A stretch of DNA of 64,000 nt, taken from positions 529,478 through 593,477 of the forward strand of contig NZ_MLJI01000003.1 of assembly GCF_002095535.1 (NCBI RefSeq), in the 5' to 3' direction. Position numbers and translations under genes: made by a program. Every line of letters starts with the position of its first letter. Position 1 is the stretch's first letter. Origin of the DNA: Pantoea cypripedii (GTDB lineage: Bacteria > Pseudomonadota > Gammaproteobacteria > Enterobacterales > Enterobacteriaceae). Below the pieces are notes generated by a model, which was given only the letters and a program-made list of their open reading frames with translations, had not been told where the DNA came from and did not search any database. Positions 9,972-42,601 of the stretch are shown piece by piece.

Positions 9972-10660
9972 GGGGAATGCACGCTATTTACGGCCCAGCA
10001 CAAGCTTGCCTGTAGAGTTAGTTACTTGTCGTTACGCTTAATCACTGTTCGGAAATAAAACCAGCTGGAATGACGATTTTTTACAAAAGGAACAAACTAA
10101 TAAATACCCACCTTCACCACCATCACACTTTTAGATAAAAGACGAAGACAAAACCACACATTCACTCTGCATTAACGTGCAGACATGACTATTTTTTTTA
10201 ATCAACGATTTCAAAAAAATAATTACGATAAACTTCACGAAACAAAAGTCCAACTTCCGTGAAAAATATCTGCATACGTCATGCGGAGAAGTTTATTATT
10301 ATATTTATCATTGAGATACGCCGCTCAACAATTAAGTAATCCGCCAAAATGCTTAATGCGGTGGAACGAAATCGTGAAAAAAACTTTAGCAAATAATGCG
10401 ATTTTTTTATTGATCAAAACTTAAATTTCCCCGGAAATATCCTACACAACTCAGAATTATCCTACCTAATTAGAGTTATGTACTCTTTTAGATAAAGCCT
10501 AAATTACGAAAACTCAATAACATCTCTCATTAAATGCTTACGGCTACCTTTAAGAATTTTCCCAGACCACAAAAACACGACTCATTTTAACCCATTGAAT
10601 TGGAAGGATTAAAACCTTAGGATCATCTCAACTCTCTTACGAAGCGGTCGAGATCAGCTT
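9972..10660 (+). promoter_or_regulatory. Long AT-rich leader before the fimbrial regulator gene
   Basis: About 690 bases without a gene, strongly AT-rich, with A- and T-tracts typical of DNA silenced by H-NS. The 12-mer CTTTTAGATAAA occurs twice in direct orientation, at 10128-10139 and 10485-10496. Rcs-like boxes are annotated separately. A long AT-rich leader before a regulator of fimbriae is common and probably integrates several global regulators. Confidence 0.6.
10431..10464 (+). promoter_or_regulatory. RcsB-box-like elements upstream of the fimbrial regulator
   Basis: TCAGAATTATCCTA at 10451-10464 matches the RcsAB box consensus TAAGAATATTCCTA at 11 of 14 positions. A weaker copy ending AAATATCCTA lies exactly 20 bases upstream (10431-10444), about two helical turns away. 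Rcs control of fimbrial regulators is established for ecp/mat fimbriae; binding here is inferred. Confidence 0.45.
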
Positions 10661-11275
10661 ATGAAAAACATAACCAGAGAGGACATTTGCTGCGTCAGTT
10701 GTAAGTTTGGTTGTCAGCTTACAGGCGAAGCAACAGACCTGCTTAACCGGTGTCCCCTACAGAAGATCGCCGTATGGCCAGGTAGAAATTACTTCATGAC
10801 TAAAGGGGTACTTTCGATTGTTAGCGGCCAGTACGAAAGCGTATTTTGCAGAGGGTGTATATTTGTTGATTTTTCAGCAAGGAACCTGCGTTATTTCACC
10901 AATAGAAATTGGATAGATTATCTCAGGTTGACAAAACTGAATATTATTCTGATCTGTGACGCCCCTATGGAGGCACTCGCTCTTTATTGGAAACGAGAAG
11001 ATCAGGCAATCAGCACCGTAATCACTGGTCGGGAAAGTCTTGAAGAAATTAAGAAGTCAATTAATTATTCCTATTACGGCATAAAGGGAGGAGGAAAGTA
11101 TAAAGGAAATCCGTTAACTAAAGATGAGGTCAGATTTCTCGATCTGGTCGTTAATGATCGATCACTCATTTCGATTTCCAGAGAATTGATGGTCGATGTT
11201 AAGAAAATTTATAACATGAAAGACTCTATCCGCAGAAAAACCGGTATCAGTCTTAATAAGCTTCTTTCAAGATAA
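10661..11275 (+). CDS. LuxR-type helix-turn-helix regulator of the fimbrial operon, Cys-rich N-terminus
   Basis: The 204-residue protein ends in a LuxR/GerE-type DNA-binding domain (about residues 150-204: Leu-Thr-Lys-Asp-Glu-Val-Arg-Phe-Leu-Asp, then a helix-turn-helix). There is no receiver signature and no autoinducer domain, as in the fimbrial or Rcs-partner regulators BglJ, EcpR/MatA and FimW. The N-terminus is unusual: Cys10, Cys11, Cys14, Cys18 and Cys31, then a Cys63-x-x-Cys66 pair, which could bind a metal or sense redox. It ends 21 bases before the major pilin start, so it may be transcribed together with the fimbrial genes. Codon use is AT-rich, unlike the housekeeping genes around it. 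Confidence 0.75.
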   Translation: MKNITREDICCVSCKFGCQLTGEATDLLNRCPLQKIAVWPGRNYFMTKGVLSIVSGQYESVFCRGCIFVDFSARNLRYFTNRNWIDYLRLTKLNIILICDAPMEALALYWKREDQAISTVITGRESLEEIKKSINYSYYGIKGGGKYKGNPLTKDEVRFLDLVVNDRSLISISRELMVDVKKIYNMKDSIRRKTGISLNKLLSR

Positions 11276-11296
11276 TAGAGATAAAGGAACTATTCG

Positions 11297-11842
11297 ATGG
11301 CTAACAAAGTAACGAAAACATGTTTGTCACTGATCATGAGCGCAAGTCTGGTTTCGGGTTTTGCGTATTCAGCCTCTGATAACACCATCAGTTTCCAGGG
11401 CGAAGTCACCGCTGAGACTTGCTCCGTCACCGTCAATGGCAACACCACGTCACCGGTTGTACTGATGCCAACAGTAAGTACCACTGATTTAGCGGCCAGT
11501 GGTGATACTGCCGGTGAAACCACCTTCACCATGGGCCTGACCGGTTGTACTGGAGACTCAACGGCATCAACCAGCGTATCAACCGTTTTTGTCGGTAATA
11601 ACGTCAGTTCAACCGGCAACCTGACCAACACCGGAACCGCGCAAAATGTTGAAGTTCAGATTCTGGACCCGCAAGACGCGGTGATTGACCTGACTGACGG
11701 ATACACCGCCAGCGGCGACCTCACCCTGGCTACGGGTGAAACCGAATCCAGCGCCAACTATAGCGTCCAATATTACGCTACAGGCGTGCCTACAGCAGGT
11801 ACGGTTGTCGCTTCACTCCAGTATGCAGTGAGCTATCAGTAA
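11297..11842 (+). CDS. Major fimbrial subunit (FimA-like pilin)
   Basis: The 181-residue precursor has a Sec signal peptide (cleavage near residue 25, Phe-Ala-Tyr-Ser-Ala) and the pilin pattern: an early Cys in Ala-Glu-Thr-Cys-Ser-Val, a second Cys in Gly-Cys-Thr-Gly, and a C-terminal beta strand ending Gln-Tyr-Ala-Val-Ser-Tyr-Gln that acts as chaperone-bound donor strand. An AAGGAAC ribosome site precedes the ATG. A terminator-like hairpin follows, as is usual after major pilin genes. Confidence 0.9.
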   Translation: MANKVTKTCLSLIMSASLVSGFAYSASDNTISFQGEVTAETCSVTVNGNTTSPVVLMPTVSTTDLAASGDTAGETTFTMGLTGCTGDSTASTSVSTVFVGNNVSSTGNLTNTGTAQNVEVQILDPQDAVIDLTDGYTASGDLTLATGETESSANYSVQYYATGVPTAGTVVASLQYAVSYQ

Positions 11843-11850
11843 TTTTTTTG

Positions 11851-11881
11851 GTGCGTATCGGTTACAGGATACGCACTTTTT
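11851..11881 (+). terminator. Partial terminator after the major pilin gene
   Basis: Arms GTGCGTATC (11851-11859) and GATACGCAC (11868-11876) pair perfectly and are followed by five T residues. It lies between pilin and chaperone genes. Such hairpins let most transcripts stop after the pilin, so that pilin is made in excess over chaperone and usher. Confidence 0.8.
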
Positions 11882-11899
11882 CTATTTGAGAACCCAGGT

Positions 11900-12665
11900 A
11901 TGTTTGTCAGTCGTAATCTCTCTCTATTCAAAACAGTTCTGACCCTTTTATTGTTGTCATGCTTTATTTCAGTAACGGCTGAAGCCAGCGTCACCATACA
12001 GGGAAGTCGTATTATTTATCCGGCGAATGCTAAGTCAGTAGATGTGCAGTTAAAAAATAACGACAACCTGCCTTATGTCATGCAGACATGGTTTGATAAC
12101 GGTGATATCGACTCCCGACCGGAACAGACAGCTCAGACGCCGTTTATTGTCACGCCACCGGTATTTCGTATTCAACCCAAATCAGGCCAGATTGTTCGGG
12201 TAATTTTTAGCGGTGATAAATCCCTGCCTCAGGATAGAGAATCGGTTTTCTGGTTTAACGTTCTGCAAATCCCTCCGGCAAATCTGGCAGGCGCGACACA
12301 ACAAAATGCGATGATGGTGATGTTGCGTAATCGCATCAAAATCTTCTACCGCCCTGCGGCTGTCGGTAAGCCGGGCAATATTTTAGACGGGCTCAAAATT
12401 CGGCACATCAGGGACAGCAAAAAAAGGCAATGGTCTTGAGATTGATAATCCACAGCCGTGGCATACCTCGCTTGTTACCGTATCGCTGAAAATTGCAGGC
12501 CAGACATTTCAAGCCCGACCAGACATGGTCGCACCATTTTCTAAACAAATATTTTGGTTTCCGGCTTCGGGTAAACACTTGCAGGGTGCGGGTGTGGCAT
12601 CGCTAGCTGCTATTAATGATCAGGGAGCAAGGATAAGTGAAAATTATACGGTTGAAGTGCAGTAA
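11900..12665 (+). pseudogene. First fimbrial chaperone (PapD/FimC type), interrupted by a +1-base frameshift
   Basis: The reading frame opens with a signal peptide and a complete PapD-type first domain, including the signature Pro-Gln-Asp-Arg-Glu-Ser-Val-Phe-Trp-Phe-Asn and Ile-Pro-Pro. It then stops at 12437-12439. The second domain (Gly-Asn-Gly-Leu-Glu-Ile-Asp-Asn-Pro onwards, ending Tyr-Thr-Val-Glu-Val-Gln) continues in another frame to a TAA at 12663-12665. The switch falls at a run of seven A residues, 12419-12425; six would restore one 254-residue chaperone. This is either a real inactivating change, a site of slippage, or a sequencing error. The reading frame downstream is fully conserved, which suggests that the break is recent or not real. 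Confidence 0.85.
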
Positions 12666-36840: not shown

Positions 36841-36941
36841 GTTTCCCACTCCTGCGTTTTTCGTTTTTGTTAAGTTTGCTGCTGGAGTTATCGGAGGAAT
36901 TGCGGAATTGTTTATCGTAAGGTGCACAAAAATGCGCGAGT

Positions 36942-36973
36942 CATCACACCGCCCGCAGCGGGGCGGCGTGATG
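36942..36973 (-). terminator. Terminator of the fabF/efflux operon
   Basis: CATCACACCGCCC pairs with GGGCGGCGTGATG (one mismatch, five-base loop) directly after the fabF stop, followed on the minus strand by a T-containing stretch. Confidence 0.75.
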
Positions 36974-36982
36974 TTGGGTAAT

Positions 36983-38260
36983 TTATCCCTGCCAGCGACG
37001 GAAAATCAGGCTGGCATTGACCCCGCCAAAGCCAAATCCATTGGAAAGCACGTACTCCATCGGCATCGGGCGAGCCGTCAACGCTACCAAATCAAGACCG
37101 GCGGCCGCCTCGTCGGGCTGATGCAGATTCAGCGTCGGCGGTGCCAACTGGTCACGCAGCGCCAGGATGCTGAAAATCGCCTCAACCCCGCCTGCCGCAC
37201 CCAGCAAATGCCCGGTCGCGGATTTGGTTGAAGTGATCGCCACGGGATTGTCGGCGAAAACTGAACGGATCGCTGCCAGCTCACCTTTATCTCCTACCTG
37301 CGTTGACGTGGCGTGCGCGTTGATATGCTGGATAGCGTCAGGCGTGATCCCTGCCTGACGAATCGCCGTCTCCATCGCCCGGCGAGCGCCGCTGCCATCT
37401 TCCGGTCCGGCGGTCAGATGGTAGGCATCAGCGCTGGTGCCATAACCCACTACCTCCGCCAGCGGTGTAGCACCACGCTCCAGCGCATGCTCCAGCGATT
37501 CAATCACCAGCAAGCCCGCCCCTTCGCCCATCACAAAACCGTCACGCTGCTGATCAAAAGGACGCGAGGCGCTGGCGGGTTGATCGTTAAAACCACTGGA
37601 AAGCGCTTTCGCCGCGGCAAAACCGCCGAGGCTAACGCGATGGATTGCCGCCTCGCTTCCGCCACACAAAGCAATATCCGCCTCGCCACTGCGAATCAGC
37701 CGCGCGGCATCACCAATCGCCTGCGCACCGGCGGCACAGGCGGTGACGGGCGCGCCAATCGGGCCGCGAAAGCCATGCGCAATCGAAACATGACCGGCGG
37801 CCAGATTGGCTAAAAACGAGGGCACGGTGAACGGTGATAAACGGCGCGGACCGCGATTGTTGGTGGTTTCTACCGCCGCCGCGATTTCGTTAAAGCCGCC
37901 GATACCGGTGGCAATGATGGTCGCGGTACGCTCACGCAGCGCCTCCAGCTGTGGGAACCAGTTGGCCTGCGTCAGGGCTTCCTGAGCCGCAACCAGCGCG
38001 AATTCGATAAAGCGATCCATTTTTTTGCGCTCTTTGGCCGGGATAACCGCCAGCGGGTCAAAACCATGTTGCGGATCCTGTTCAACCGAAGGCACCTGGC
38101 CCGCCACTTTGCAGGGAATATCCTGCGCGATAGCTTCAGGTAACGGGCTGATGCCGGACTGCCCTTTCACCAGGTTACGCCAGACATGTTCCACACCACA
38201 TCCCAACGGGCTGACAATACCCATGCCAGTCACGACGATGCGCTTTAATGAGATATCCAT
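36983..38260 (-). CDS. fabF: Second FabF-type 3-oxoacyl-ACP synthase II in an efflux operon
   Basis: The 425-residue enzyme elongates acyl-ACP by two carbons. Catalytic residues are intact: Cys175, His316, Lys346 and His351. The gatekeeper region near the C-terminus (Asn-Gly-Phe-Gly-Phe-Gly-Gly-Val-Asn) is normal. The housekeeping fabF usually sits in the acpP cluster; this copy is the last gene of an operon for a drug exporter, 21 bases after emrB. An extra FabF in such a place suggests a target substitute against a fatty-acid-synthesis inhibitor, with the pump. Alternatively, the enzyme may help to make an exported compound. Confidence 0.88.
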
Positions 38261-38281
38261 ATGATCTCCGGATAGTGAGAC

Positions 38282-39841
38282 TTAAGTTTTTGGCACTTTC
38301 ATAAACGGCACCAGCAAGGCGGCGATAAAAAACCCGATCATGATTAGCCAGAAAGCGTCCGCGAAAGCCTGGGTTTTGGCTTCGCGGAGCGTAAGTGCCG
38401 CAAGATTTTTCAGCGCGGCGGTCTGTGCAGCATCGGGGCTGAAGCCCTGTTTTATCAGTGCTGCGGTGGAAGATTGCATAAATTCGCCCAACGACAGACT
38501 GGCGCTATTGAGATGGTCCGCGAGGCGACTGTAATGCAGGTTTGTTCGATCATTAAGTATAGTGCCGCACAGCGCGATGCCGATGGCGCCGCCCAGGTTG
38601 CGCATCAGATTAAACAACCCGGATGCCAGTTTGAGACGCGCTGGCGGCAGGCTGCCGAGGGTCAGCGTCACCGTCGGTGCCACCGCGAACTGCTGGGCCA
38701 TGCCGCGAAAGGCCTGCGGCAACAACAGTTGTTCTGCACCCCAGTCGTGGGTGATAGGTACAAAGCTGTACATCGATACACCAAAAGCAATCAACCCGGC
38801 GGCCAGCAGCCAGCGCAAATCCACCCGATTGGCTAACCAGGAATACAGCGGGATAGAAAGCACCTGAAACAGGCCGGTGGAGAAGATCGCCAGCCCAATT
38901 TGCAATGCGCTATAGCCGCGCACCGTGCCGAGAAACAGCGGCGTCAGATAGATGGTGGCAAAAATGCCGACCCCGGCCATAAAGGAAAAATAACAGCCGA
39001 GGGTAAAGGTGCGGTCTTTTAACGCGTATAAATCCATTACCGGTTGCTTGTGACGCAGCGTGCGCACAATAAACAGCACCCCGCAAATCAGCGCCAGCCA
39101 GCCGGTGAGGGTCAGTGTACTATCATCAAACCAGCCCCAGCGCGGACCTTCTTCCAGCGTGTATTCCAGGCATCCCAGCGACACCGCCAGCAGGACAATG
39201 CTGAGATAATCGGCACCACGCAGCAACGAGGTATCCGGCGAATCAATGTTCACCAGCGCGGGCACGGCGAACGTGATGTAGATACCCGGCAGGATGTTGA
39301 TAAAGAACAGCCAGTGCCAGTTAAAATTCTCGGTGATCCAGCCGCCGACGGTAGGGCCAAGGGTAGGTGCCAGCGAGGCCAGACCGCCGATGGTGGCGGC
39401 AGCGATCACCCGCTGTTTTCCCTGAAAGAACGCAAACGCCGTGGTGAACACCAGCGGAATCATCGAACCACCCGCCAGCCCCTGCAACGCGCGGAAGGCA
39501 ATCATGCTTTGAATATTCCACGCCCAGCCGCATAACACGCTCATCAGGGTAAAACCTGCTGCTGAGGCGGCGAATAGCCAGCGCGTAGACATCACCCGAG
39601 CCAGCCAGCCGGAAAGCGGGATGATGATGATCTCTGCAATCAGGTAGCTGGTCTGCACCCAGACGGTTTCATCATCACCTGCCGATAGCCCCCCGCCGAT
39701 ATCCCGTAACGAGGCGGAGACGATTTGAATATCCAGCAAGGCGATAAACATCCCCAGACACATGGTGGCAAAGGCAATCACCTTCTGGCTGACCGGCATC
39801 TGCAATGTCGGGATGGCAGGCAGAGCCGTCTGGTTGCTCAT
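38282..39841 (-). CDS. emrB: EmrB/QacA-type drug efflux transporter
   Basis: This 519-residue, 14-segment MFS antiporter is of the DHA2 family, with the motif-A region Gly-Trp-Leu-Ala-Arg and the motif-C region Leu-Ala-Pro-Thr-Leu-Gly-Pro-Thr-Val-Gly-Gly-Trp-Ile. With EmrA and an outer-membrane TolC it would expel hydrophobic compounds. The start overlaps emrA by four bases. Confidence 0.9.
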   Translation of the reverse strand: MSNQTALPAIPTLQMPVSQKVIAFATMCLGMFIALLDIQIVSASLRDIGGGLSAGDDETVWVQTSYLIAEIIIIPLSGWLARVMSTRWLFAASAAGFTLMSVLCGWAWNIQSMIAFRALQGLAGGSMIPLVFTTAFAFFQGKQRVIAAATIGGLASLAPTLGPTVGGWITENFNWHWLFFINILPGIYITFAVPALVNIDSPDTSLLRGADYLSIVLLAVSLGCLEYTLEEGPRWGWFDDSTLTLTGWLALICGVLFIVRTLRHKQPVMDLYALKDRTFTLGCYFSFMAGVGIFATIYLTPLFLGTVRGYSALQIGLAIFSTGLFQVLSIPLYSWLANRVDLRWLLAAGLIAFGVSMYSFVPITHDWGAEQLLLPQAFRGMAQQFAVAPTVTLTLGSLPPARLKLASGLFNLMRNLGGAIGIALCGTILNDRTNLHYSRLADHLNSASLSLGEFMQSSTAALIKQGFSPDAAQTAALKNLAALTLREAKTQAFADAFWLIMIGFFIAALLVPFMKVPKT

Positions 39842-40869
39842 GGCAAGGGCTTCTCATCAACCGTTACCGTCACTGACAGCCCAGGGCGCAGCAGACCGAG
39901 ATTCGCCGCATCCCCCTCCAGCGCGATACGCACCGGTACGCGCTGAACAATTTTGGTGAAATTACCGGTGGCATTTTCCGCAGGCAGGATACTGAAACGC
40001 GAACCGGTAGCCGGAGACAGGCTGACAACATGGCCGCTAAAGGTACGCCCCGGCAGCACATCGGCAACGATCTGCGCCTTTTGTCCCGCCTGTAAATGCG
40101 CCAGCTGGTTCTCTTTAAAATTGGCATCCACCCATAATCCCTGCGCGGGCACCAGCGACAGCAACTGGGTGCCACTGGTGACATAAGCCCCTGACCAGGC
40201 GCGTCGGTTGCCGATCACGCCATCGAAAGGCGCACGGATTTCGGTATAGCTCAGGTTGAGTTTTGCCATTTCCAGCCCCGCCTGCGCCTGGACCAGCGCC
40301 GCCTGGGTCTGCTTTTCACGCGCATCCAGCACCATCAACTGACGCACGGCGACGTTTTTGTCGGCGCGCGCCTTACCCTCCTGGGCCACCGCCTGATGAT
40401 AATCGGCCTGCGCATATTCGCGGGTTTGCGCCGAAACGATAGAATTCAACGCCAGCGCACCATAACGTCGGCTGTCCCCGGCCGTTTTCTCCGTCACCGC
40501 CTGAGCGGCATTCACCGCCGCAGACGACCCGACAATGGTCGCCAGCTGCAATTCACGCGTAGCGGCGATATCGGCCAGTGCCGCCTGTTGCGCATCCACC
40601 TCACCACTGGCCTGCATCAGCGCGGCCTGATAATCACGCGCGTCGAGCCGCACCAGCAGCTCGCCTTTTTTCACGCGCATGTTGTCCTGCACCGCAATAT
40701 CCTGCACGTAGCCCGCCACTTTGGCGGAGATGGCGCTAATATCACCACCAACATAGGCATCATCGGTTGACTCGATAAAGCGACCCGATTGCCACCACCA
40801 CAGGCCGTAGCCGGATGCCAGCACCGCCGCTGCAATAACCACCACCGGAATCACCACGCGTTTGTTCAT
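39838..40869 (-). CDS. emrA: EmrA/HlyD-type periplasmic adaptor
   Basis: The 343-residue membrane fusion protein has one N-terminal membrane helix (Val-Val-Ile-Pro-Val-Val-Val-Ile-Ala), split lipoyl parts (Asp-Asp-Ala-Tyr-Val-Gly-Gly, and Ile-Arg-Ala-Pro-Phe-Asp-Gly-Val-Ile), and a coiled-coil hairpin. It bridges EmrB and the outer membrane. ATGA overlaps join it to both neighbours. Confidence 0.9.
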   Translation of the reverse strand: MNKRVVIPVVVIAAAVLASGYGLWWWQSGRFIESTDDAYVGGDISAISAKVAGYVQDIAVQDNMRVKKGELLVRLDARDYQAALMQASGEVDAQQAALADIAATRELQLATIVGSSAAVNAAQAVTEKTAGDSRRYGALALNSIVSAQTREYAQADYHQAVAQEGKARADKNVAVRQLMVLDAREKQTQAALVQAQAGLEMAKLNLSYTEIRAPFDGVIGNRRAWSGAYVTSGTQLLSLVPAQGLWVDANFKENQLAHLQAGQKAQIVADVLPGRTFSGHVVSLSPATGSRFSILPAENATGNFTKIVQRVPVRIALEGDAANLGLLRPGLSVTVTVDEKPLP

Positions 40870-41411
40870 GGCTGCTCGCCTTTTTGCGTCTGCGGCATAA
40901 ACTTCAGCGCGGCCTCACCCGCGCGTTTTTTCTGCAAATATTCGTGCCGATAGTGCAGGATGGGAGCCGCTGCGGGGGCCGGAACCATGCTGTATTTATC
41001 TGAGGTGATCGGCTGTCCGGTGGTGCTATCCACCATAATGGGCTGCACCGGACGCTGAGTGGCGGTTTCCACCAGCTGCATCTGACGACCTTCCGGCGAG
41101 AAATGGCGGCTCCCCCATTCTGCCAGCGCCAGCATCACCGGCCGGAAATCCCGTCCCAGTTCGGTGAGACGGTATTCGTAACGCGGCGGCGTGCTGCTGT
41201 AGCACACCTTTTCCAGCAGACCATCTTCCACCAGCTCTTTCAGGCGGCGGGACAGGATGTTAGGCGCGATGTCGGCGCTTTTCTGGAACTCATCAAAACG
41301 GGTAAATCCGGCAAAGGCATCGCGCAGGATCATCATGCTCCAGCTGTCGCCAATCCTCCCGAGGCTGCGTGCAATGGGGCATGGGGTCTGACAAAGCGGT
41401 TCGTTTTTCAT
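40866..41411 (-). CDS. HxlR-family repressor of the efflux operon
   Basis: The 181-residue winged-helix protein has the N-terminal Cys7-x-x-x-Cys11-Pro-Ile of HxlR proteins and a core with Phe-Asp-Glu-Phe, then Ile-Ala-Pro-Asn-Ile-Leu-Ser-Arg-Arg-Leu-Lys-Glu-Leu. Such proteins usually sense reactive chemicals by cysteine modification. It is the first gene of the operon and overlaps emrA by four bases. A perfect inverted repeat lies 40-70 bases before its start, suggesting autoregulation of the whole operon. Confidence 0.87.
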   Translation of the reverse strand: MKNEPLCQTPCPIARSLGRIGDSWSMMILRDAFAGFTRFDEFQKSADIAPNILSRRLKELVEDGLLEKVCYSSTPPRYEYRLTELGRDFRPVMLALAEWGSRHFSPEGRQMQLVETATQRPVQPIMVDSTTGQPITSDKYSMVPAPAAAPILHYRHEYLQKKRAGEAALKFMPQTQKGEQP

Positions 41412-41451
41412 GGTGCTGGCTCAGATAAGGTCTTAATGCGCACAGATTTCC

Positions 41452-41480
41452 ATAGTCACTTTCAAAATGCAAGTGACTAT
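41452..41480. promoter_or_regulatory. HxlR operator candidate before the efflux operon
   Basis: ATAGTCACTT (41452-41461) and AAGTGACTAT (41471-41480) form a perfect ten-base inverted repeat with a nine-base centre. It lies at promoter distance from the HxlR start at 41411. Confidence 0.65.
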
Positions 41481-41535
41481 ATTGACGGCAGCTCAGAGTG
41501 CGAAGTGATTGAGTCAGGTGGATAGGGCCTGCCCA

Positions 41536-41587
41536 GGTGCGCATGAATGCGCACCCTACAGGAGTAAGGTCGGCATTTATGCCGACC
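41536..41587. repeat. Two adjacent hairpin repeats of a second REP-like type
   Basis: GGTGCGCAT/ATGCGCACC (41536-41555) and GGTCGGCAT/ATGCCGACC (41568-41587) are two perfect hairpins with nine-base arms and two-base loops, 12 bases apart. They differ from the GTAGCGGCG type but share a CCCTAC flank, so may be another family. Confidence 0.75.
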
Positions 41588-41619
41588 AGGCCAATAACCG
41601 CACGGAACCGTAGCGGAAA

Positions 41620-42601
41620 TTAATGTTTCGGAGCGGGTCCGACGGATTCGCGCATGACCAGGCTGGCATTGAAACTTTTGCGCTGGCCGATTTCTCCGCC
41701 GTCCAGCATCGAAACCAACTGTGCAATGGTTTGCTGCACCATCTCCGTCACCGGGATTTTCATACTGGATAAGGACGGGATGGTATAAGGTGCCAGTGGA
41801 ATATCATCAAAACCCACCACGGAAACCTGTTCAGGAATGGCGATGCTGGCCGCCTAGCTAGCTAGCGACAATCGCCGTAAAGCGGCATCCGCGCGTCAAC
41901 AAAGTTTCTACCGCCGCCATGCCACTTTGCGCATTCCATTTTCCGGGGATAATCAGCGCATCCTGCACCGGTATCTGATGTTCAGCCAGCGCCGCTTTAT
42001 AACCTGACAGGCGCTCCAGCCCGGTGGGAGAATCGAGTGATCCGGTGATAAAGGCGATATCACGATGCCCGAGCGCCACCAGCTGGTTTACCGCCTGCAT
42101 CGCGTTGGCTTTCTGATCGGAATAAATACAGAAACTATGGTGCTGCCGCAGGCGACGATTGATCACCAGAATCGGCTGTTTATGTTGAGAAATGATCTCA
42201 TCCATCTCATCAATGGAGAGAAAACGCGGGTAAATGATGATGCCATCACAACGCAAATCCAGCAGAAACTGAATCGCCGCCCGCTCCTCCGCCGCGCTGT
42301 GTTTACCATCGGCGAGGATTAACTGCCGATCCTGCTGTTCCAGCAAGCGGGCAGAATGGGACATCAGCTCGCTAAAGTAGCTGCCGCTGTACAGGGTATT
42401 GGTGATCACCAGGCCGATGGTCTGGGTCGATTTAACCGCCAGATTGCGCGCCAGCAGGTTGGGTCGAAAGTCAGTCTCAGCAATCGCCCGCAGCACCCGT
42501 TCGCGCTTTTCCTGGCTGACATAGCCATTTCCCGACAACACGCGCGACACCGTGGCTTTCGACACACCGGCTCTTTCAGCCACTTCCAGAATGGTTGCCA
42601 T
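41620..42601 (-). pseudogene. ascG: Broken ascG, LacI-type repressor of the asc beta-glucoside operon
   Basis: The headpiece and most of the effector domain (247 codons from 42601) closely match E. coli AscG. The frame then stops within a CTAGCTAGCTAG block at 41854-41865. The C-terminus (Ile-Pro-Glu-Gln-Val-Ser-Val-Val-Gly-Phe-Asp-Asp and further) follows in another frame to 41620. Compared with AscG, about 14 codons, the Asn-Asp-Asp-Met-Ala-Ile-Gly part, are missing. As given, the repressor would lack part of the effector fold. Given the nature of the block, an assembly or engineered artefact is possible. Confidence 0.85.
41854..41865. other. CTAGCTAGCTAG block with stops in all six frames
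   Basis: This 12-base palindrome puts TAG in all three frames of both strands. CTAG is rare in enterobacterial DNA, and here it occurs three times in succession at the exact place where about 14 codons are missing from ascG. That is the design of a stop linker, or of a contig-joining sequence. Confidence 0.7.

Follow-up and report, generated by a model that had tools for sequence, protein, structure and literature searches.

An hxlR-led efflux operon of Pantoea cypripedii encoding FabF2, a putative bypass enzyme for fatty-acid condensation

The closest described counterpart of the operon reported here is the fabF2 operon of Pseudomonas putida F1 (Dong et al. 2021, PMC8319022). The operon itself, hxlR-emrA-emrB-fabF2, lies on the reverse strand at positions 36983–41411 of a 64,000-nucleotide stretch of Pantoea cypripedii DNA (the window, 529478–593477 of contig C3) and is predicted to encode a regulator, an efflux pump and an accessory beta-ketoacyl-acyl carrier protein synthase (KAS). 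The P. putida operon (Pput_2425-2424-2423-fabF2) starts with the gene for a TetR repressor, holds a two-gene pump that its authors termed unrelated, and ends with fabF2, which is cryptic and co-transcribed. Loss of the repressor lets FabF2 replace FabB. E. coli fabB(Ts) and fabB(Ts) fabF strains grow again when supplied with the enzyme, which makes unsaturated fatty acids as FabB does, replaces FabF weakly and gives little C18:1. The authors state that a TetR regulator is present in every such cluster, and they suggest that FabF2 backs up the cell when unsaturated fatty-acid synthesis is defective. In the parts of that report available, no HxlR-EmrAB form is described, thiolactomycin is absent, and cerulenin occurs only in a reference title.

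Other described systems resemble single parts of the operon. A review reports that E. coli EmrAB-TolC confers resistance to thiolactomycin and cerulenin (PMC8277102), and thiotetronate clusters carry extra KASI/II genes, for example tlmF, that are read as self-resistance, the extra KAS being proposed as an insensitive or a surplus target (PMC5518548). A FabF2-type FabF of Burkholderia vietnamiensis is represented by the PDB entries 4ddo and 4f32 (the latter a platencin complex), and was compared as a protein. The literature searched yielded no account of an operon of the HxlR-EmrAB-FabF kind and none of FabF2 conferring resistance to KAS inhibitors.

The four Pantoea genes are hxlR (40866–41411, 181 residues), encoding an HxlR-family one-component regulator that is a probable autorepressor of the operon; emrA (39838–40869, 343 residues), encoding an EmrA-like periplasmic adaptor of the HlyD/EmrA type; emrB (38282–39841, 519 residues), encoding an EmrB-like efflux permease of the DHA2 family of MFS proteins; and fabF2 (36983–38260, 425 residues). 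The first-pass annotation had reported this order, with four-base overlaps between hxlR and emrA and between emrA and emrB and a gap of 21 bases between emrB and fabF2, and the coordinates confirm it; the genes form one apparent transcription unit. As in P. putida F1, a repressor gene comes first, a two-gene pump stands in the middle and fabF2 is last, and FabF2 is accessory to another FabF and a FabB. Unlike the P. putida operon, with its TetR gene, this one starts with hxlR, and its pump is of the MFS EmrAB type whereas that of the Pseudomonas loci compared (the P. putida sequence itself not among them) is of the RND type. The combination of an HlyD-type adaptor with a DHA2 permease is that of E. 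coli EmrAB-TolC, but here the pump is linked to a KAS and follows hxlR, whereas the E. coli pump is not known to have a linked KAS and is regulated by EmrR of the MarR family. The extra FabB/FabF recalls the thiotetronate clusters; theirs stands in actinomycete biosynthetic clusters near the genes for the inhibitor, while the Pantoea copy comes with its own pump and regulator and no biosynthetic genes were seen nearby. The TetR-pump-fabF2 operon of P. putida has been known since 2021 (PMC8319022).

The fabF2 product passes the fabF model TIGR03150 with 553.4 bits against a cut-off of 493.75, and ketoacyl-synthase domains are present. Its catalytic residues are complete, as the first-pass annotation had stated: the cysteine C175, both histidines H316 and H351 and the lysine K346 are invariant in a 44-row alignment. 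An alignment-based AlphaFold model is good (predicted local distance difference test, pLDDT, 91.3), while that from the single sequence is useless (pLDDT 32). The genome (6.55 Mb in three contigs: C1, 4,492,436 bases; C2, 1,415,896 bases; C3, 645,493 bases) holds four further ketosynthase matches, all on C1. One is a FabF, 49% identical to the operon enzyme and scoring 645.1 bits under TIGR03150, whose gene sits directly after fabD, fabG and acpP and before pabC (these four named by reading translations); a second is a FabB (NF005935, 783 bits against a cut-off of 630). Because C1 carries a FabB as well as a FabF encoded within a fabD-fabG-acpP-fabF cluster, the operon FabF is an extra copy, and the possibility that it is the housekeeping one, for which the first-pass annotation had allowed if no second fabF existed, is ruled out. 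The remaining two C1 matches are to PRK09116 and PRK09185, which may have an aryl-polyene role.

A quick maximum-likelihood tree of 88 proteins, some on long branches and with support from the SH-like approximate likelihood ratio test (SH-aLRT) only, no bootstrap, groups the window FabF with 13 other Enterobacterales rows (SH-aLRT 99). This group adjoins 34 rows, mostly of Pseudomonas, the 48 being jointly supported (SH-aLRT 99), and a 78-row FabF2 group (SH-aLRT 100) excludes the genome's own FabF, its FabB and eight other Pseudomonadota FabF proteins of 52–55% identity. Judged by sequence, the operon FabF belongs to a distinct clade, FabF2, apart from other FabF, and shares it with the fabF of Pseudomonas TetR-pump-fabF loci. 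The P. putida enzyme, Pput_2422, presumably falls in the same clade, judging by its operon layout.

Fixed differences set the clade apart. We compared 125 FabF2 rows (L158 left out) with 31 housekeeping rows, namely the own FabF, E. coli FabF and the 29 nearest relatives of the own FabF from 120 Pseudomonadota genomes, and with the eight 52–55% rows. At 22 alignment positions one residue is found in at least 95% of FabF2 and in at most 5% of the 31 housekeeping rows. Among these, E. coli positions 90, 91 and 100 are mostly common to the eight 52–55% rows, and 77 and 117 partly so; the others include L111F, F133T, T137F, S165A, H168Q, P272G, G304A, S397G and T403V (E. coli FabF numbering). F133 and T137 are presumably residues of the acyl pocket. 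In the substrate gate of FabF, loop 2 pivots about P272–P273 and loop 1 comprises residues 399–402 (PMC7138838).

The operon is not unique to this strain and is the Enterobacterales variant of a broader FabF2 system. Its nearest relatives by locus are in a Pantoea metagenome-assembled genome (L006; FabF identity 99%) and on the plasmid pPAT9B01 (94.8%) carried by Pantoea sp. At-9b, where the identical four genes stand in the same order. The loci compared are the nearest relatives of one protein, and counts among them are for that reason not frequencies in nature. In the 31 loci L006–L036, all from Enterobacterales, hxlR stands before fabF2 without exception; emrAB lies between them in 21, no pump in nine and a remnant in one (L020). 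The search of other genomes for the same four genes that the first-pass annotation had proposed finds them in these 21 and on pPAT9B01. The remnant is that of Kosakonia arachidis (L020:8911–11272), where fragments of emrA and emrB are all that is left of the pump between hxlR and fabF2. In Pantoea rodasii (L016:8444–11275) emrB and fabF2 occupy one open frame of 943 codons as the result of a slight difference in length from its tree neighbours near the end of emrB; this may be a fused pump-synthase or a sequencing error.

The 48 loci L037–L084 come from Pseudomonas, Stutzerimonas, Azotobacter, Azomonas, Zobellella, Plasticicumulans and one Erwinia, and in none of them does HxlR-EmrAB precede fabF2. 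A same-strand RND pump gene lies upstream in 41, mostly with an adaptor, and most have a TetR gene farther upstream (Pfam identities taken from representatives); the genes that may intervene encode an SDR protein, a DHA2 permease or a 4HBT thioesterase. In three Pseudomonas loci (L039, L041 and L124) fabF2 is preceded by both an RND pump and an MFS permease and followed by a second TetR gene. Pantoea alone shows at least four arrangements: HxlR-EmrAB-FabF2 (the window), HxlR-FabF2 (L026), TetR-RND-FabF2 (P. vagans pVag1) and TetR-FabF2 (P. agglomerans). In Klebsiella grimontii (L036:9346–20338) an HxlR-FabF2 pair adjoins a TetR-MFP-RND-FabF2 set on the opposite strand.

Regulators and pumps were tallied in 126 FabF2 loci of at least 58% identity, near-duplicates included. 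A regulator was counted if it lay no more than 1.2 kb from fabF2 or, where an RND gene intervenes, up to 8 kb away on the same strand. The regulator is HxlR in 48 and TetR in 60 (one or the other in 108), and neither is found in 18, although in eight of these the upstream region does contain a TetR-type gene that the rule does not reach. The counted TetR stands farther off in six Pseudomonas loci (L063, L068, L070–L072 and L084), with an outer-membrane-factor gene in between in five of the six. A pump is linked in 75 loci: RND in 51 (48 colinear, three divergent), mostly in Pseudomonas, and EmrAB in 24 loci of Enterobacterales, counting the L020 remnant and L086 with its broken frames. Thinning at 93% identity leaves 77 rows (HxlR 25, TetR 40, neither 12; RND 32, EmrAB 9, no pump 36). 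HxlR, TetR or pump genes were found at none of 38 other FabF loci, a control made up of the own FabF with its 29 nearest relatives, seen with only 1.5 kb of flank, and the eight 52–55% rows, whose surroundings had already been seen before they were chosen.

Evenly drawn genomes give FabF2-like matches in 13 of 295 Enterobacterales (E ≤1e-160; two of the 13 with internal stops) and in 58 of 398 Pseudomonadota (E ≤1e-135), the latter reaching down to 51% identity, so that the lowest are not FabF2. No place covering 80% of a query from 37500–41498, which lacks the fabF end, was found in 5,426 E. coli genomes; 1,298 of them have a partial match of about 65% identity, which falls on HlyD and DHA2 genes in the 10 matches listed. 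Plasmids of Cupriavidus (no annotation) and Variovorax have HxlR-EmrAB-like matches in which the matched stretch holds no fabF.

The regulator scores 82.3 bits under PF01638 (cut-off 20.8), its NCBIfam matches are to the redox regulators RrpB and RrpA, below cut-off, and it matches the HxlR, YodB and QsrR structures by sequence. Upstream of its gene is a palindrome, AGTNACTTGCANNNTGNNAGTNACT (41454–41478), beginning 67 bases before the hxlR start, that we predict to be the HxlR operator. The pattern was drawn from the Enterobacterales-group sequences themselves, and begins 61–70 bases ahead of hxlR in all 34 loci of the group (the window, L006–L036, L085 and L086), exactly in 31, with one mismatch in two and with two in one, whether a pump is present or not; the best of 1700 shuffles had four mismatches, once. 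Among 15 other HxlR-FabF2 loci, which include four divergent ones and one (L161) close to L035, it is found with at most two mismatches in 10 and with three in three, and was not found in two (L132 and L166). Scanning the whole genome with a slightly stricter form gives a single exact site, the operon's own. A wider HxlR regulon was considered and set aside, since besides that exact site the scan gave two other places, with 2 and 3 mismatches. Of the eight highest-scoring HxlR relatives in the 295 Enterobacterales genomes (at least 160 bits), seven lie beside or in one unit with FabF2, and the eighth adjoins an SDR gene (by reading its translation). HxlR is probably a repressor acting at the palindrome.

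For the pump, EmrB exceeds the cut-off of the EmrB subfamily model TIGR00711 (402.1 against 230.2 bits), has an MFS_1 domain and falls below that of the EmrB model NF000391 (245.4 against 925); EmrA has an HlyD domain and is below the cut-off of the EmrA/EmrK subfamily model TIGR00998 (244.1 against 390.8 bits). A close EmrB relative (E ≤1e-120) occurs in two of the 295 Enterobacterales genomes, one being this operon; the other has 46% identity and lies on a different contig from that genome's FabF2. KpnGH of Klebsiella pneumoniae was considered as the same pump and rejected, being described as an emrAB homologue more than 90% identical to that of E. coli (PMC4019481).

On balance we favour the view that hxlR-emrA-emrB-fabF2 is an inducible operon pairing a pump with a bypass enzyme, a two-layer defence of the condensing step, probably against KAS inhibitors. 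HxlR bound to the upstream palindrome would hold the operon shut until freed by an inducer that is most probably a FabB/FabF inhibitor coming from neighbours or plants, similar to thiolactomycin or cerulenin and perhaps thiol-reactive; EmrA-EmrB would export the compound, and FabF2, as a spare synthase for the FabB and FabF reactions with an altered pocket and gate, would sustain elongation. We infer the repressor role of HxlR and its ligand, the substrate of the pump and the inhibitor tolerance of FabF2. Others have shown that the P. putida counterpart is repressed and co-transcribed and that its FabF2 replaces FabB and, weakly, FabF (PMC8319022); an enzyme that replaces both suits the bypass of a drug hitting both. 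A surplus of FabF2 could be of use even if the enzyme is inhibitable, an argument already made for thiotetronate producers (PMC5518548). The first-pass annotation had read an extra KAS, efflux and a sensing repressor as a self-protection module, and the arrangement is upheld, recurring with unrelated pumps and regulators and agreeing with the resistance reported for E. coli EmrAB (PMC8277102). Self-protection of a producer was considered but is not supported by the stretch screened, 20.5 kb of At-9b, where no biosynthetic genes are seen among the 19 annotated features.

Several points weigh against a defence directed at KAS inhibitors. First, F400, T270, T307 and both catalytic histidines, contacts of thiolactomycin and platensimycin, are unchanged in FabF2. 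Second, position I108 is unchanged as well (isoleucine or valine in 79 of 80 rows, glycine in the other), and a change of the I108F type, seen in a mutant B. subtilis FabF (PDB 4ls6) and presumably conferring cerulenin resistance there, is ruled out. Third, the pocket changes would fit an altered choice of substrate equally well. Fourth, 4f32 has platencin bound to a FabF2-type enzyme, which disfavours insensitivity of FabF2 to platensimycin or platencin and makes drugs of this type, listed by the first-pass annotation among those to try, a less likely target. Fifth, the pump is not intact in 10 of the 31 loci L006–L036, and 51 of the 126 FabF2 loci have no linked pump. Sixth, the lack of biosynthetic genes in the 20.5-kb At-9b stretch counts here too, as does the fact that no KAS-inhibitor test on any FabF2 was found in the literature searched. 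Finally, deletion of fabF2 in P. putida makes cells more resistant to ampicillin, erythromycin and carbenicillin, and deletion of the pump leaves the fabB-null phenotype unaltered (PMC8319022).

Among other explanations, the operon might answer a membrane-active or hydrophobic toxin, the pump removing it and FabF2, itself not inhibitor-tolerant, shifting fatty-acid composition. The FabB-like unsaturated products and low C18:1 of P. putida FabF2 would agree with this, as would the fixed pocket changes, which fit an altered chain-length choice, and the SDR and 4HBT thioesterase genes that accompany FabF2 in some loci. Yet fatty acids of the P. putida fabF2 deletion are unchanged from wild type, though the gene is cryptic there (PMC8319022), the enzyme is weak, and replacing both FabB and FabF exceeds what remodelling needs; we consider it unlikely.

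Cysteine sensing is known for HxlR-family regulators of the YodB/QsrR type, and Cys11 of HxlR is present in 45 of 45 sequences compared (Cys7 in 23 of 43). HxlR might then sense thiol-reactive compounds that also inactivate the active-site cysteine of FabB/FabF, the replacement enzyme and the pump being made in response to a general electrophile, not an antibiotic; the RrpB/RrpA matches, although below cut-off, and the matches to HxlR, YodB and QsrR structures point the same way. A cysteine of the Cys11 type is common in the family and may be structural, and TetR-linked FabF2 operons have no such sensor, so that we regard a general electrophile as a rather improbable inducer. That pump and FabF2 merely share a promoter, FabF2 being a back-up for loss of FabB, is assumed for P. 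putida with its "unrelated efflux pump" (PMC8319022) and would fit the many HxlR-FabF2 and TetR-FabF2 loci without a pump, but it is highly improbable given that the pairing occurs with EmrAB, colinear RND and divergent RND in different parts of the tree, that none of the 38 control loci shows it, and that the sole EmrB relative above 46% identity in the 295 Enterobacterales genomes is this operon's.

Around the operon, an inverted repeat with 12-base arms and one G-T pair (36943–36972, reverse strand), read from the sequence just past the fabF2 stop, is a possible operon end; no T-run stands directly behind it, and a terminator scan shows only an overlapping shorter stem. That scan gives 10 sites in the region against 5.5 expected, and a promoter scan 2 against 2.9. 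Upstream of the operon, a LacI-family gene (41858–42601, reverse strand) is disrupted in the window, matching residues 1–247 of a 337-residue At-9b protein in one frame and 267–335 in another, whereas in the near-identical metagenome-assembled genome it lies in one frame. The VOC-family gene that precedes hxlR in At-9b has no match in the window (the interval in question is 41411–41858) or in L006, and the interval 36927–36983 between fabF2 and an MCP gene leaves no room for the Asp/Glu racemase gene that follows fabF in At-9b. Elsewhere, at 10001–12000, G+C falls to 41% against 53–58% around the operon, possibly marking acquired DNA.

More broadly, and more tentatively, FabF2 may lie at the heart of a class of resistance operons, inducible, widespread and so far unrecognised, that act against natural KAS I/II inhibitors. 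Separate lineages would repeatedly have put this spare synthase, capable of both the FabB and the FabF reactions, downstream of a repressor that senses a ligand (HxlR or TetR) and next to whichever pump exports the inhibitor (MFS EmrAB, RND or an extra DHA2 permease); the pseudomonad FabF2 would then be cryptic only because its inducer, a KAS inhibitor of soil or plant surfaces, is absent from laboratory media. If true, this would solve a published puzzle, the retention by pseudomonads of a cryptic FabF2 that stands behind a repressor and beside a pump. It would mean that bypass resistance to KAS I/II inhibitors is already present in environmental and opportunistic bacteria, and the hxlR operator would serve as a reporter for finding new natural KAS inhibitors.

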